In this document: positions 1,209 to 5,350 of the stretch, piece by piece
How the letters are laid out: every line of letters begins with the position of its first letter
Position numbering within the stretch: the first letter of the stretch is position 1
NCBI GenBank assembly: GCA_017452115.1
Contig: JAFTNB010000100.1
Span: forward strand, 1 to 12,367
DNA: 12,367 nucleotides
DNA from: Alphaproteobacteria bacterium
GTDB lineage: Bacteria > Pseudomonadota > Alphaproteobacteria > RF32 > CAG-239
Reading direction: 5' to 3'
Position numbers and translations under genes: made by a program
Notes under the pieces: generated by a model
The model's database searches: none
What the model was told of the DNA's origin: nothing
The model's input: only the letters and a program-made list of their open reading frames with translations

Positions 1209-2648
1209 ATGAGTAATACCGAGCTAAAGCAAATTTGGAAAGATAATTATAGGGTAGTACCAAATGCTATGGCGGATATGAAAAAGGTGGCAGCTGTAGC
1301 AACGGCATTTAATTCTAATATTGATGCGGTAATTAAATTGTCTGGAGAACAAATTGCTAAACTTGCTTTAGATATAGGTATATCATGGATTCATTTGCAT
1401 CGTATTGGGCGTAGTAAAATTCATGGACCACGCGATTTTATTAAAGCATTAGTTCGATGTTTTTAAAAAGTAATTGCTGAAGAATGGATTACAGAAAAGC
1501 CTGAAGTGTATGAATGGTTGATGCAAAAAGTAGGGTATAATCGTTTGCAAATGGGGGGGCAAGCTGGAATTGTCGGTAATGTTTTAGCTGCTTGTGGTAT
1601 ACAGAAAGTTTATGTGCATACTAATTCATTGCCTCAGAAGCAAGCAGAACAATTTTTAAAATTAGATAATTTATTATCTTTTGATGAAAATGGGAAGCCT
1701 GTTCCTGCTTATACAATTAATCGTGCTGATGATGTTCCGTTAATTCATTGGATTATAGAGTTTGATAAGGGTGATGTATTTAAATATTTAGGACACACGT
1801 CTGTTTGTCCTAAGTCAAATAGATTTATTGCTACATATGATCCTTTGAATTTAAGTTTAACCATAAATAAGGCATTTGTTGATGATATAAAAAATCAAAA
1901 ACTTGATTATATTGTATTATCAGGTTTTCATGCTTTAACAATTAATACGGGTGGGGTTAAGATTATTAATAAAGCCTTTCCGGTAATTGAAGAGTGGCGC
2001 AAATATTCTCCTAATGCTATCATTCATTTGGAATTAGCTTCAACGCAAGATATTGCAATTAGAAAAGCTATTATAAATAAAATTGTTCCTAAAGTTGATT
2101 CTATAGGTGTAAATGAACGAGAAACAATAGATGTTCTTGAAGTTATTGGTGAAGAAGAATTAGCTCGCTTGTGTGAAAATGAACCCAATAGTGTAAATCT
2201 TTTTAAAGCATTATTAAAAATTAAAGAAAAAACTAAGTGTTCAAGAATTCAATTACATATGTTTGGATTATATATAACTATACAAAACAGTTGTTATAGA
2301 ATTACTCCTGAAAATAATCGCAAAGGTATGGTGTTAGCATCATCTGTAGCCGCTCATAAAGCTAAAACAGGAACAACAGATAATTGTGCAAGTGAACCTA
2401 TGTGGTCATTAGGACGAAGTGTTTCTGATGTCGGGTTGGAAGAATTACGAGCACTTTCTAAATATCTAAAACGTCCTAAAATGATGAAAACAGGTATTGC
2501 TGAATATGCAGATTTGGAAATAATTGCAGTGCCTACAATCTTAGTCGATAATCCTCTTACTTTGGTTGGAATGGGAGATACTATTTCTTCGATTTCTTTA
2601 GTAGGAAGTTTTGATGAAAAAATACGTTCTCCGTTTTTGAATAAATAA
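1209..2648 (+). pseudogene. ADP-dependent glucokinase/phosphofructokinase family, interrupted by one in-frame TAA
   Basis: Read through codon 86, this is a 478-residue protein, close to the usual 450-480 of the ADP-dependent sugar kinases (ribokinase-like fold, ADP as phosphoryl donor). Recognisable elements in order: F-N-S-N-I-D near 34-39 (sugar site), G-G-Q-A-G near 116-120, S-G-F-H-A-L near 238, H-L-E-L-A-S (H273, E275), N-E-R-E (302-305, metal-binding), and G-M-G-D-T-I-S-S with the catalytic base near D457. A TAA at 1464-1466 splits it into 85 residues and a same-frame remainder; translation resumes as K-V-I-A-E-E-W-I, which fits the family. No other lesion was seen, so the stop looks recent, or is a sequencing error. 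Start ATG 1209 has GAGGAA six bases upstream. A downstream fragment restarting at GTG 1506 would lack the N-terminal sugar-binding part. Glucose versus fructose-6-phosphate specificity cannot be decided here. Confidence 0.8.
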
Positions 2649-3140: not shown

Positions 3141-3737
3141 ATGGTGAAGAAAAAATATAATTATCGTTTTGTTTTACCTAAAGGTAAAAAATTGTATTCT
3201 TTGGTTGTTGTAAAAAAGAAAAACAAGCAACAAGTTTTGGTTAATGATGTTTTCCGTTTTTATACTGTCGGTGATTATTTAGTATATCGAAAATATAATG
3301 ATAGTAAGTGGTATATTCGTCAACAAAATATCAAAACAGAAACTCTTTTGGGGCATGCTCAAAGCAGAGTAGCTTATTTTTCTTATAGAGATGAAAGAAA
3401 ATATGTTATTAGTTTTTTTAATCAACACGGTGCTTTTGTAACTAGAAGTTATCTTTATACTGATTTGGGATATTCTGGGGGTAAACAAGTTTTAATTTGT
3501 TGCAAAGAAGATGGTTACTATGATGTTTTTGTAATAAAATTTCGAGTTTCTTATGATTTGAATGAATGTCATTTGGAAGAATTTATACCGAATGACAATA
3601 TTACAATTTGTTATAATGGTAATTGTTTAGTTAAACAAATGGAATACGATAAAAGCAAAAAATGTTGGAAAGATGCAACAGTAAAAGAAAGTTGGTTTGA
3701 AAAATTTATGAATTGGTTGGAGAAAGTTCTACCTTAA
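3141..3737 (+). CDS. Unknown protein H1, paralogue of the gene at 4751
   Basis: Not recognised. A 198-residue protein rich in Lys, Tyr, Phe and Val in alternating strand-like runs, with no signal peptide or membrane helix, so a cytoplasmic beta-rich protein is likely. Blocks line up almost without gaps with the gene at 4751: Y-R-F-V near 8-11, Y-R-K-Y-N near 49, V-I-S-F-F-N-Q near 89, C-K-E-D-G-Y-Y-D-V near 121-129, C-W-K-D-A-T-V near 175, and an amphipathic C-terminal helix with W-F-E-K-F. It lies 41 bases after rbfA behind an A/T-only leader with no Shine-Dalgarno. No promoter of its own is clear, so it may be read from rbfA. A strong terminator follows at 3746. Confidence 0.72.
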   Translation: MVKKKYNYRFVLPKGKKLYSLVVVKKKNKQQVLVNDVFRFYTVGDYLVYRKYNDSKWYIRQQNIKTETLLGHAQSRVAYFSYRDERKYVISFFNQHGAFVTRSYLYTDLGYSGGKQVLICCKEDGYYDVFVIKFRVSYDLNECHLEEFIPNDNITICYNGNCLVKQMEYDKSKKCWKDATVKESWFEKFMNWLEKVLP

Positions 3738-3851: not shown

Positions 3852-4379
3852 TTAAAAACTATATCTTACACCTGCTGATAATTCTGTGATGTTATCTACG
3901 GAATAGCTATCCACGAAAGCATGTTTAAGCATTCCTCTTATGCCCCAGTTATCGTTGATATTATATTGAGCGCCAAGACCAACTCGTAGGGCTGTTTCTT
4001 CTTCGCTTAAAGAATATCCGTATCCTTCGGCTTCGAATTCATAAAAGCCGACACCAGCGGAAGCAAATAATTCAACATTGTTGTTTACCGGTAAATATCC
4101 AAATGCGTCGATACCATAACTGTTGTAGGATAGATCTATTCCATAAGATTCTGTTTTGGCGGAAGTTTGAACAGATGTTTCAAGTCCAAAATAATCAGAA
4201 ATTTTGGTACCAACGTTAAAACTGCCGATAACAAAATTATCGTCAAATATATTCCACGGCTCATATAATTCAGCGTGAGAATAACCTATATCGGCGCCGA
4301 CATATGGTTTGATATCGGCAGCATTAGCATTAAATGCAATTAAAGTGGCTGCACTAGCCAGCAGTAATGTTTTATTCAT
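3852..4379 (-). CDS. Small outer-membrane beta-barrel protein
   Basis: A 175-residue protein from the ATG at 4379. Residues 1-20 form a signal peptide (M-N-K, hydrophobic L-L-L-A-S-A-A-T-L-I-A-F, then A-N-A, with cleavage before A-D-I). The mature part of about 155 residues consists of alternating amphipathic strands with G/Y-rich turns and ends in V-R-Y-S-F; the final Phe is the usual C-terminal signal for outer-membrane insertion. It resembles the eight-stranded OmpA/OmpW-like 'OMP_b-brl' group; the ligand or role is unknown. The start at 4379 is preferred over an in-frame ATG at 4388 because AAGGA (4392-4388) is eight bases from it but overlaps the spacing region of the other. It is transcribed against its neighbours and has an unusually structured upstream region (4403-4608). 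Confidence 0.87.
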   Translation of the reverse strand: MNKTLLLASAATLIAFNANAADIKPYVGADIGYSHAELYEPWNIFDDNFVIGSFNVGTKISDYFGLETSVQTSAKTESYGIDLSYNSYGIDAFGYLPVNNNVELFASAGVGFYEFEAEGYGYSLSEEETALRVGLGAQYNINDNWGIRGMLKHAFVDSYSVDNITELSAGVRYSF

Positions 4380-4402
4380 TATGAACATCCTTTTTTTTAG
4401 TT

Positions 4403-4432
4403 AAAACAAAACCCACCAAATTATGAGGTGGG
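4403..4432 (-). terminator. Terminator inside the leader of the beta-barrel gene
   Basis: Minus strand: CCCACC, nine-base loop, GGTGGG, then TTTTGTTTT. It lies between the structured segment and the ribosome binding site of the barrel gene, so it either ends a separate small RNA or acts as an attenuator. Confidence 0.68.
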
Positions 4433-4608
4433 CGGATGTTCAGAAACCGTATGTAACTAGACGGCTCGGCTTATTTGGCTGAGCCTTATTCGCCGACATC
4501 CGTCCAAAATAAGACATAAGAAGTCGGCACATTTATTTAAAGTCGTGTGCACACGACTAGTTGCATAAAGGGTTTCTGACGCCCTAGACATATCTCTATG
4601 TCTAGAAT
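4403..4608 (-). ncRNA. Candidate structured leader RNA / attenuator upstream of the beta-barrel gene
   Basis: No gene is credible in the 371 bases between the two divergent starts, but the sequence is dense with complementary segments. Coaxial long-range stems: 4440-4448 with 4571-4579 (9 bp, perfect) and 4452-4460 with 4557-4565 (9 bp, one non-Watson-Crick). Inside them: hairpins 4463-4470/4478-4485 and 4543-4547/4552-4556, and stem 4492-4497/4523-4528. Outside them: a 9-bp hairpin with a GAGA loop on the minus strand (4584-4605). Segment 4433-4439 also matches 4496-4502, which would form a pseudoknot. The minus-strand reading ends in an intrinsic terminator (4403-4432), 11-12 bases before the Shine-Dalgarno of the barrel gene. 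I recognise no known family. Strand caveat: the two imperfect pairs are G-U if read on plus but A-C on minus. Confidence 0.48.
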
Positions 4609-4610
4609 GC

Positions 4611-4639
4611 AGTTTAGAATTTAAATTTAAAATTGTAAA
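4611..4639 (-). promoter_or_regulatory. Putative promoter of the structured leader and beta-barrel gene
   Basis: On the minus strand TTTACA (4639-4634), 17 bases, then TAAACT (4616-4611). Transcription would begin near 4605, exactly where the first hairpin starts. The match is moderate and the region is AT-rich. Confidence 0.38.
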
Positions 4640-4692: not shown

Positions 4693-4720
4693 TTGACAAA
4701 ATTGTTATTTTTGGTATTTT
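4693..4720 (+). promoter_or_regulatory. Promoter of H2
   Basis: A perfect TTGACA (4693-4698) is followed after 16 bases by TATTTT (4715-4720), 30 bases before the ATG at 4751. The leader that follows is almost pure A/T with no Shine-Dalgarno. Confidence 0.62.
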
Positions 4721-4750: not shown

Positions 4751-5350
4751 ATGGAAAGAAAAAATTATTTAGAACATCGCTTTGTGTCTTATAATACAGA
4801 CAGGAGATTGAGTTTCAGGTTAGAATGTAAAAAGTCTGACAAGTGGGAAATGGTTGATACGGATATTGTTTGTCACTATGCTTTGAATGGCAGAATATTT
4901 TATAAAAAATATGATGAAAATGAAGAAGTATGGTGGATGTGCGAAGTACATGTTATGCAACCGGAATGCTTGGGCAAACGCTATTTTGAGGGTGCATTTT
5001 TTTGTATGCATAATTTTTGGGTGAGTTTCTTTACTCAAGATGCTTTGTTTAAGAGAATAGTGTACAGCGGTACAATAACAATTGATTATAAGCGGAGTTT
5101 GTTATTTTGCCGAAAAGAAAACAAGTATGATGTTTATAAAATAGAGTATTATCCGGGGATTGAAGCTTCCGGATATTTGATACCTAAATATGGCCCTCCG
5201 ACAGAAATTTTACATGTAAATACCGGTGATGGCAAAAAATTGCATTTGCGTTCTCGTTTAAATCCTGACAAAACCTTGTATTGGCAAGAAGTTGATGTAA
5301 GACCATGGTATACAAAGGTATATCAACGTATTAAAAAAGCTCTCGTATGA
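4751..5350 (+). CDS. Unknown protein H2, paralogue of the gene at 3141
   Basis: Not recognised. 199 residues, rich in Tyr, Trp, Phe and Cys, with no signal peptide or membrane helix. It is colinear with H1: H-R-F-V near 9, Y-K-K-Y-D near 51, V-S-F-F-T-Q near 91, C-R-K-E-N-K-Y-D-V near 120-128, Y-W-Q-E-V-D-V near 177, and a basic amphipathic C-terminal helix starting W-Y-T-K. Sequence identity is low, so the duplication is old or the proteins evolve fast. It has its own TTGACA promoter, an SD-less leader, and a terminator that overlaps its stop codon, making it a compact one-gene unit. Two paralogues on either side of the barrel gene may mean a local duplication around it. Confidence 0.75.
   Translation: MERKNYLEHRFVSYNTDRRLSFRLECKKSDKWEMVDTDIVCHYALNGRIFYKKYDENEEVWWMCEVHVMQPECLGKRYFEGAFFCMHNFWVSFFTQDALFKRIVYSGTITIDYKRSLLFCRKENKYDVYKIEYYPGIEASGYLIPKYGPPTEILHVNTGDGKKLHLRSRLNPDKTLYWQEVDVRPWYTKVYQRIKKALV

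Follow-up and report, generated by a model that had tools for sequence, protein, structure and literature searches.

A probable antisense-type leader related to sRNA-Xcc1 and C4 RNA before an outer-membrane protein gene of an alphaproteobacterium

Overall, we think it probable that the gap before an outer-membrane beta-barrel gene in the window (the whole 12,367-nucleotide stretch of DNA that was analysed) holds a chromosomal leader of the C4/sRNA-Xcc1 type, one that would act mainly in cis and whose antisense strand would pair either with the leader's own 5' half or with the Shine-Dalgarno of the gene behind it. Judged by sequence comparison, the gap holds one of the many members of a large branch of antisense-type leaders that are not modelled as such in Rfam 15, and gut bacteria appear to use copies of this leader to switch surface-protein genes by masking their ribosome-binding sites. 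The common leader anatomy ties together sRNA-Xcc1 and C4, two families that stand apart in Rfam, and it places a chromosomal, multi-copy branch at the surface genes of uncultured gut bacteria. We know of no regulator for these surface genes; the leader, if our reading is true, would provide a testable mechanism for their coordinated or variable expression, and it suggests that sRNA-Xcc1 should be re-examined as a component of a leader that governs the gene behind it.

Anatomy, covariation and strand

The leader at 4404-4608 reads, in minus-strand order, as a promoter-like site, a 5' hairpin, a series of helices with two pseudoknots, a terminator and, last, the barrel gene's Shine-Dalgarno. Its parts, in window coordinates, are:

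4611..4639, minus: promoter-like site TTTACA-17-TAAACT, directly 5' of the leader, 9/12 consensus matches
4584..4605, minus: P0, the 5' hairpin (CTAGACATA/TATGTCTAG), arms 4584-4592/4597-4605
4569..4585, minus: H1, hairpin AGGG/CCCT with a1 in its loop; 97.3% of cells paired in 47 copies
4573..4579, minus: a1, 5' strand of helix P1, partner 4440-4446; 96.3% paired
4559..4567, minus: b1, 5' strand of helix P1b, partner 4450-4458; couplings among the strongest
4541..4558, minus: P2, a palindromic hairpin; 96.5% paired, two-sided changes in 4/6 pairs
4527..4550, minus: PK2, P2 loop 4547-4550 with 4527-4530; covarying pair 4547/4530
4493..4527, minus: P3, 4523-4527 with 4493-4497; 100% paired in 47 copies
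4422..4505, minus: C4/sRNA-Xcc1-like domain, first bases GGA; RF02221 positions 1-87, 35 bits
4496..4505, minus: PK1/closing stem, 5' strand GGACGGAUGU; 99.7% of PK1 cells paired in 47 copies
4477..4485, minus: P4, small hairpin GGC/GCC; 96.5% paired, two-sided changes in 2/3 pairs
4447..4464, minus: P5, 4461-4464 with 4447-4450, overlapping P1/P1b; covarying pair 4462/4449
4430..4439, minus: PK1/closing stem, 3' strand ACAUCCGCCC, which is also the anti-Shine-Dalgarno
4404..4432, minus: intrinsic terminator CCCACC/GGTGGG followed by TTTTGTTTT, its CCC in common with the closing stem; -12.5 kcal/mol
4382..4390, minus: Shine-Dalgarno target GGATGTTCA, complement of 4434-4442; perfect 9 bp
3852..4379, minus: outer-membrane beta-barrel gene, PF13505, 1.9e-16; the start is probably 4379 (MNKT...), the ATG at 4388 falling within the Shine-Dalgarno

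A sequence-only reading of this gap had described an attenuator layout, that is, a structured, pseudoknotted, terminator-bearing minus-strand leader of the barrel gene with a promoter-like site, and in this it was right. The stems that it proposed (4440-4448/4571-4579, 4450-4463/4554-4567, the palindrome 4541-4558 and 4584-4592/4597-4605) are present, as are its 7-bp pseudoknot (4433-4439/4496-4502, CGGATGT/ACATCCG) and its minus-strand terminator before the barrel gene (4412-4417/4427-4432, -12.5 kcal/mol by fold); a consensus terminator scan missed 4404-4432 because the loop is 9 nt and the scan permits 3-8. The pair 4480/4468, which it also drew, lies outside the structure supported by the copies, where the small hairpin is instead GGC/GCC at 4485-4483/4479-4477. 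Its imperfect pair 4563/4454 is a real mismatch (C-A), but a lesion of the window copy only, in a helix whose other pairs covary strongly.

A DNA search of 57 relatives' genomes returned dispersed copies at 71-86% identity, with many chance short matches besides. Taken with their flanks, 51 copies were refound and one place (L062) was not; 52 rows, window included, were aligned, and removal of the weak rows L057, L063, L061, L064 and L026 left the 47 copies of alignment A1, while the covariance model R1 was built on the trimmed alignment A2. This alignment of homologous loci, a check that the sequence-only reading had itself proposed, shows strong covariation with compensatory changes. Over 44 pairs in the 47 copies, 92.8% of cells are standard pairs, a share that falls to 27-41% when partners are slid by 1-3 columns; two-sided changes occur in 25/44 pairs of A1, as against 13.2 ± 1.6 in shuffles, and the A1 covariation score is 0.300 vs 0.149 in shuffles, these controls leaving some relatedness among the copies in.

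The strongest unsupervised couplings fall in P1b, P1 and PK2 (4547/4530). Two-sided changes are found in every pair tested of P1b and in 5/7 pairs of P1, and the PK2 pair 4547/4530 is C-G in 21, U-A in 20 and U-G in 3 of the 47 copies. The P5 pair 4462/4449 also ranks high (G-C in 41 copies, A-U in 5 of the 47); P5 has bases in common with P1 and P1b, so that they may be mutually exclusive. Among the same 47 copies the terminator pair 4429/4415 is G-C in 18, A-U in 16 and G-U in 11, P3 varies by G-U only, and H1 becomes GGAT/ATCC in two (L044 and L048). A hairpin stands at the place of P0 in many copies (shuffle p ≤ 0.05 in 79/105), with differing sequences. An outer pairing 4580-4584/4430-4434 (GGGCG/CGCCC) is 95% paired with almost no compensatory change, reads A-C in the two copies with compensated H1, and was not adopted. 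The motif AGCCGU/ACGGUU bears a resemblance to group II intron domain V; it was compared by eye with Xcc1 loci, and the idea was dropped.

Because G-U outnumbers A-C in the minus-sense helices of the 47 copies, we read the RNA from the minus strand: the ratio of G-U to A-C cells is 24:0 for P3, 17:0 for P4, 18:4 for P1b, 9:1 for PK1, 8:2 for P2, 10:4 for H1 and 2:1 for P1, with PK2 balanced (7:7) and the terminator nearly so (12:9). The sequence-only reading had called the strand unsettled while leaning to minus on the terminator and promoter; that lean agrees with the copies, which settle the matter. A plus-strand RNA gives the better lone fold (z -9.7, as against -7.6 for minus, with 0/200 dinucleotide shuffles folding as well on either strand), yet the counts favour minus. 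The -10 position across copies lends the promoter-like site weak support: the best -10-like hexamer begins 29-36 nt 5' of GGG in 61/105 copies, with a mean score of 17.2 vs 16.0 in mononucleotide shuffles.

Kinship with sRNA-Xcc1 and C4 RNA

No known class had been recognised in the letters alone, a verdict that we would now replace, since the 3' half of the leader is a divergent relative of sRNA-Xcc1 (RF02221) and the whole leader has the anatomy of a C4-type antisense RNA. An Rfam search, the other check suggested at that time, gave sRNA-Xcc1 at 35 bits and E 0.0047, below the gathering cut-off of 53; no window match had a better E-value, and of the matches listed to E 5 no other lay within the element. 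The RF02221 model also runs end to end (1-87) in 13/14 further loci (29-37.7 bits, E 0.0043-0.49 in the all-Rfam scan), L022 being the one of the 14 without such a match and 37.7 bits, again below 53, the best of them. The window's own genome yields RF02221 matches at E ≤ 0.001 at two copies of the element and nowhere else (9.2e-5 and 2.2e-4; 10 of 32 candidates scored). Our own model R1 recovers 5/20 Xcc1 loci in register (E 1.7e-6 to 0.02), the other 15 being unmatched or off register. A bridge is provided by the class-level locus L198, which scores 66.9 bits with R1 (E 1.8e-17) and 56.2 with RF02221, over the cut-off, and L197 lies just under it (51.7 bits with RF02221). An Xcc1 match to E 0.05 occurs in 7/20 class-level sources scanned, and among 398 Pseudomonadota genomes sampled 58 have one at E ≤ 0.001 and 39 one over the cut-off. 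As judged from these matches, the 3' domain of the leader is homologous to sRNA-Xcc1.

The likeness extends beyond the Rfam model. Strands resembling H1, a1 and b1 lie upstream of Xcc1 loci, and there, as here, the gene behind the RNA is complementary to it around the start site. An initial single-helix test on 20 Xcc1 loci taken from that sample was weak (p ≤ 0.05 in 9/20 upstream and 2/20 downstream) and was replaced by duplex folding and by permutation between loci. By duplex folding, the stretch 5' of the Rfam model forms pairs with the model's 3' half in 14/20 loci (p ≤ 0.05), and the start-site region does likewise in 9/20. When partners were swapped among these loci, the own a1b1 pairing came to -25.56 vs -18.65 (0/5000 as good; own partner best in 11/20) and the own start-site pairing to -18.32 vs -12.45 (0/5000 as good; own best in 9/20). 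Ten proteins downstream of Xcc1, picked from the 20 loci partly for their phage-like look, comprise four with Bro-N/KilA-N/P22_AR_N domains, one Bro-N below cut-off, one SymE-like and four unmatched. In the literature, sRNA-Xcc1 is an 88-nt RNA with mapped ends in Xcc (PMC2996969), lies upstream of symE in Xanthomonas cassettes (PMC12444791) and is discussed as a virulence-linked regulatory sRNA (PMC12444791, PMC12189769). The start-site complementarity of these loci (L066-L085) and the Bro-N, KilA-N, P22_AR_N or SymE-like genes at some of them argue against Xcc1 as a trans-acting RNA only, and sRNA-Xcc1 may itself be part of such leaders. There are differences: window copies score below the Rfam cut-off, a T-run visible by eye in Xcc1 loci is missing from their P2, and their genes are mostly envelope genes, whereas the Xcc1 loci tested include Bro-N, KilA-N, P22_AR_N and SymE.

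For C4 RNA (RF01695) the relation that we claim is one of shared anatomy, as distinct from the homology claimed for Xcc1. For the C4 RNA of phages P1 and P7, the literature lists c4-a1b1 (PMC2864571) and has C4 cut by RNase P at GGW, its loops binding target mRNAs and its b' loop covering ribosome-binding sites in part (PMC5320573). As in C4 (four loci, L086-L089, compared by eye), the leader carries a1b1 upstream, antisense a'b' inside and a target at the Shine-Dalgarno, and its domain begins like GGW: GGA in the window, with a third base A in 36/47 copies and G in 11/47. The upstream a1b1 is complementary to the antisense segment at p ≤ 0.05 in 47/47 copies. The complementarity to the Shine-Dalgarno is strong, but it runs through the closing strand and the end of a' and not through a copy of a1b1; since the masked site is an a1b1 copy in C4 and Xcc1 and a closing-strand copy here, the mode would not be identical. 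Unlike in C4, the gene downstream is a barrel (PF13505) and not a phage antirepressor, and no antirepressor domain was found in the 19 family representatives scanned. The C4 model finds nothing in the window to E 5 and nothing at E ≤ 0.001 across the genome of the window, while R1 matches 0/4 C4 loci in register and two off register (E 0.13 and 1.1). In Rfam, sRNA-Xcc1 shows no clan and c4-2 shows CL00128, and our search of titles and partial texts found no paper equating Xcc1 with C4. Xcc1 loci resemble C4-type leaders, and we read the window element as a divergent member of that architecture.

Copies, the genes behind them and the source locus

R1 matches at E ≤ 0.001 in 117/126 genomes of the window's bacterial family, some weakly (3.5e-4 in one, G001), with from 1 to at least 21 matches per genome, 21 being the number of candidates scored; at class level it matches 16/240 genomes, three of these in-family. 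A core-pattern scan of GTDB contigs returned at least 96 stretches, and the 80 match titles listed name MAG or uncultured Alphaproteobacteria, Pseudomonadota/proteobacterium, Azospirillum sp., Rhodospirillales and bacterium, many from ruminant or other gut and one being Azospirillum sp. CAG:239. The exact core pattern, which fits 43/47 copies, matched nothing in viral contigs. A core-pattern search for leaders gave 136 copies, 118 without duplicates, and seven more places without a recognisable closing 3' strand; an ORF is called directly downstream in 111/118 unique copies, the other seven having none.

The 111 element-led ORFs fall into 39 groups, named from one representative each, of which three consist of ORFs of at most 43 aa truncated at a contig end. 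PEGA-type lipoproteins form the largest group (25), ahead of autotransporters (14) and a second set of lipoproteins (11); then come pilin-like proteins (8), barrels (7) and a third set of lipoproteins (6). Neither the second nor the third of these lipoprotein sets matches a Pfam family, and both were named by eye from the lipobox. Among the minor groups and the singletons are an EcoRI-type methylase, an APH-family kinase, an Mrr endonuclease, Stealth and other glycosyl-transfer proteins, a phage tail-collar protein and a helix-turn-helix regulator. By crude sequence rules, 82/111 element-led ORFs begin with a lipobox or signal-like start, compared with 177/768 background ORFs, for which starts were assigned mechanically. 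In 48/78 cases an element and its closest relative in sequence stand before genes of one family, vs 6.6 when shuffled, so the copies mostly descend together with their genes.

Several side observations concern individual loci. The window's own genome holds two more copies, one (L065, contig C160, 4864-5042) leading an 827-aa ORF that resembles the autotransporter group and the other (L224, contig C4, 255-468; 48.6 bits) an ORF with a lipoprotein-like start. Tandem leaders occur in class-level genomes, about 60 bases apart at L225 (501-655 and 713-872, minus) and about 140 bases apart at L223 (216-360 and 501-650, minus). In the window itself, a promoter-like TTGACA-16-TATTTT with TG preceding the second hexamer (4693-4720, plus) faces the divergent gene at 4751. 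The barrel region is flanked by two orphan proteins, 198-199 aa long (3141-3737 and 4751-5350, plus), which are remotely paralogous to each other (22% identity, E 3e-9) and match no Pfam family above its cut-off. A gene for an ADP-dependent sugar kinase, to our knowledge unexpected in an alphaproteobacterium, appears split into 1209-1466 and 1506-2648 (plus), the second piece matching PF04587 (4.8e-60, profile 71-429) and the first, an 85-aa ORF without a Pfam match, resembling by eye the missing N-terminal part.

Shine-Dalgarno masking and mode of action

The pseudoknot noted in the sequence-only reading stands, but that reading missed that one of its strands is also an anti-Shine-Dalgarno (ACAUCC vs GGAUGUU). 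GGATGTT precedes the start in 62/111 element-led ORFs (within 22 nt) vs 4/768 other ORFs (within 30 nt), and GG[AG]TGT in 70/111 vs 9/768, a longer stretch being searched in the others; GG[AG]TGT is absent 5' of the start in 41/111 copies. Among the background ORFs with a recognisable Shine-Dalgarno, only 2/446 have GGATGTT (L041 and L097); L041, one of the four GGATGTT background ORFs, is itself element-led, and L097 is probably so too, its leader matching the core pattern although it was not kept in the filtered copy set. Pairing of the Shine-Dalgarno region reaches p ≤ 0.05 in 33/47 copies and is not significant in 14/47.

Within the family alignment the closing strand hardly varies; in class-level copies it changes, and the Shine-Dalgarno changes along with it. 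Thus L193 has closing GGATTT/AAATCC with GGATTTCAG, L207 has GAGAATCC with GGAATCTCGG, L216 has ACACCCC with GGAGTGTT and L225 has CCTCCG with CGGAGATCAAG. The own Shine-Dalgarno/antisense pairing averages -12.06 kcal/mol vs -7.99 ± 0.42 permuted in a curated set (n=35; 0/5000 as good), from which 12 named rows were taken out, ten as low-scoring, wrong-strand or off-place and the well-placed L197 and L231 for a start codon that looks miscalled, a choice that could favour the masking reading. With no ORF-bearing row dropped (n=45) the values are -10.46 vs -6.99 kcal/mol, and for rows without ACATCC (n=23) -11.68 vs -7.51 kcal/mol, again with 0/5000 permutations as good in each; the rows are those with a called ORF, and some genomes contribute several copies. 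Only in 7/35, 7/23 and 6/45 rows of the curated, ACATCC-free and full sets does the own Shine-Dalgarno rank first among all partners, and in L214 and L233 the own pairing is worse than the median of others. The b1 strand pairs well only with its own partner (0/88 cross-pairs as strong, among 23 copies within five genomes). We infer that P1b isolates each copy and that the masking code is common to the copies.

The simplest account would be a two-state leader. In the window, UUUCUGAACAUCCG can pair with the leader's 5' strands (a1 and the closing CGGAUGU) or with the Shine-Dalgarno GGAUGUUCA, at predicted energies that lie close together: -12.9 kcal/mol for the closing stem, -17.1 for the a1b1 pairing and -14.1 for the Shine-Dalgarno pairing, the terminator standing at -12.5. 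Averaged over 47 copies, the closing stem comes to -14.0 kcal/mol and the Shine-Dalgarno pairing to -12.3. While the 5' pairing, a pseudoknot, is held, the Shine-Dalgarno would be free and the 5' arm of the terminator partly occupied, and the barrel gene would be read. Were the 5' pairing broken or bypassed, the terminator would form and the Shine-Dalgarno would be masked in any read-through mRNA. We read this polarity, with 5' pairing as the on state, from which strand frees the Shine-Dalgarno, and candidate triggers would include RNase P processing, an RNA chaperone, temperature, a ligand, translation and growth state. The fast-changing P1b would make each copy fold with itself, so that the leader would act mainly in cis.

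A wider picture may be drawn, one that we offer tentatively and to which we lean a little less than to its denial. A phage-type antisense immunity leader would have been made into a host-wide control of much of the surface proteome in a family of small-genome gut Alphaproteobacteria, with many copies, a private b1:b' helix in each and a near-common Shine-Dalgarno code, and sRNA-Xcc1, which has been presented as a trans-acting sRNA, would form the 3' half of a leader of this kind. In this context, the private helix and the near-common code could allow leaders to be switched singly in cis or together via a common factor.

The terminator placed between leader and gene could also mean a separate small RNA, and the best surviving alternative, though an unlikely one, is a trans-acting sRNA with its 3' end at the terminator, which RNase P would cut at GGA and which would silence a regulon of GGATGTT Shine-Dalgarnos. 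The mapped ends of the 88-nt sRNA-Xcc1 (PMC2996969) and the cleavage of C4 at GGW with target-binding loops (PMC5320573) fit it, the window domain starting with GGA, and the antisense and target sequences are common to many copies. Such an RNA would, however, hold its antisense strand in its own closing stem within the mature domain, and outside element-led genes GGATGTT Shine-Dalgarnos occur at only those 4/768 ORFs, counted over the loci examined as distinct from whole genomes.

We consider a metabolite riboswitch, in which a ligand-binding pseudoknotted aptamer would govern the terminator and Shine-Dalgarno of surface genes, slightly less plausible again. The leader shares with riboswitches and attenuators generally a set of alternative pairings that could control both elements, and its two pseudoknots, many invariant positions and several genes per genome would fit such a switch. 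Nothing in the sequence comparisons, however, pointed to a small-molecule ligand. Unlike riboswitches, it is homologous to an antisense-type RNA family; the sRNA-Xcc1 homology and C4-type anatomy account for the architecture without a ligand, and the surface, restriction/methylation and glycosyl-transfer genes downstream offer no shared pathway that we can name.

Least of all do we favour a dispersed mobile or DNA-level element (a MITE, an attC-like or a recombination site) that folds by chance, a very improbable reading for which the dispersed copies (1 to at least 21 matches per genome) and the relative sRNA-Xcc1, reportedly integron-encoded and transposon- and plasmid-transferred by the title of Chen 2011, might speak, but which we reject on the one-strand bias of G-U over A-C, the fixed place before start codons, the linkage of nearest relatives to the same gene family (the 48/78 above) and viral contigs unmatched by the exact core pattern.
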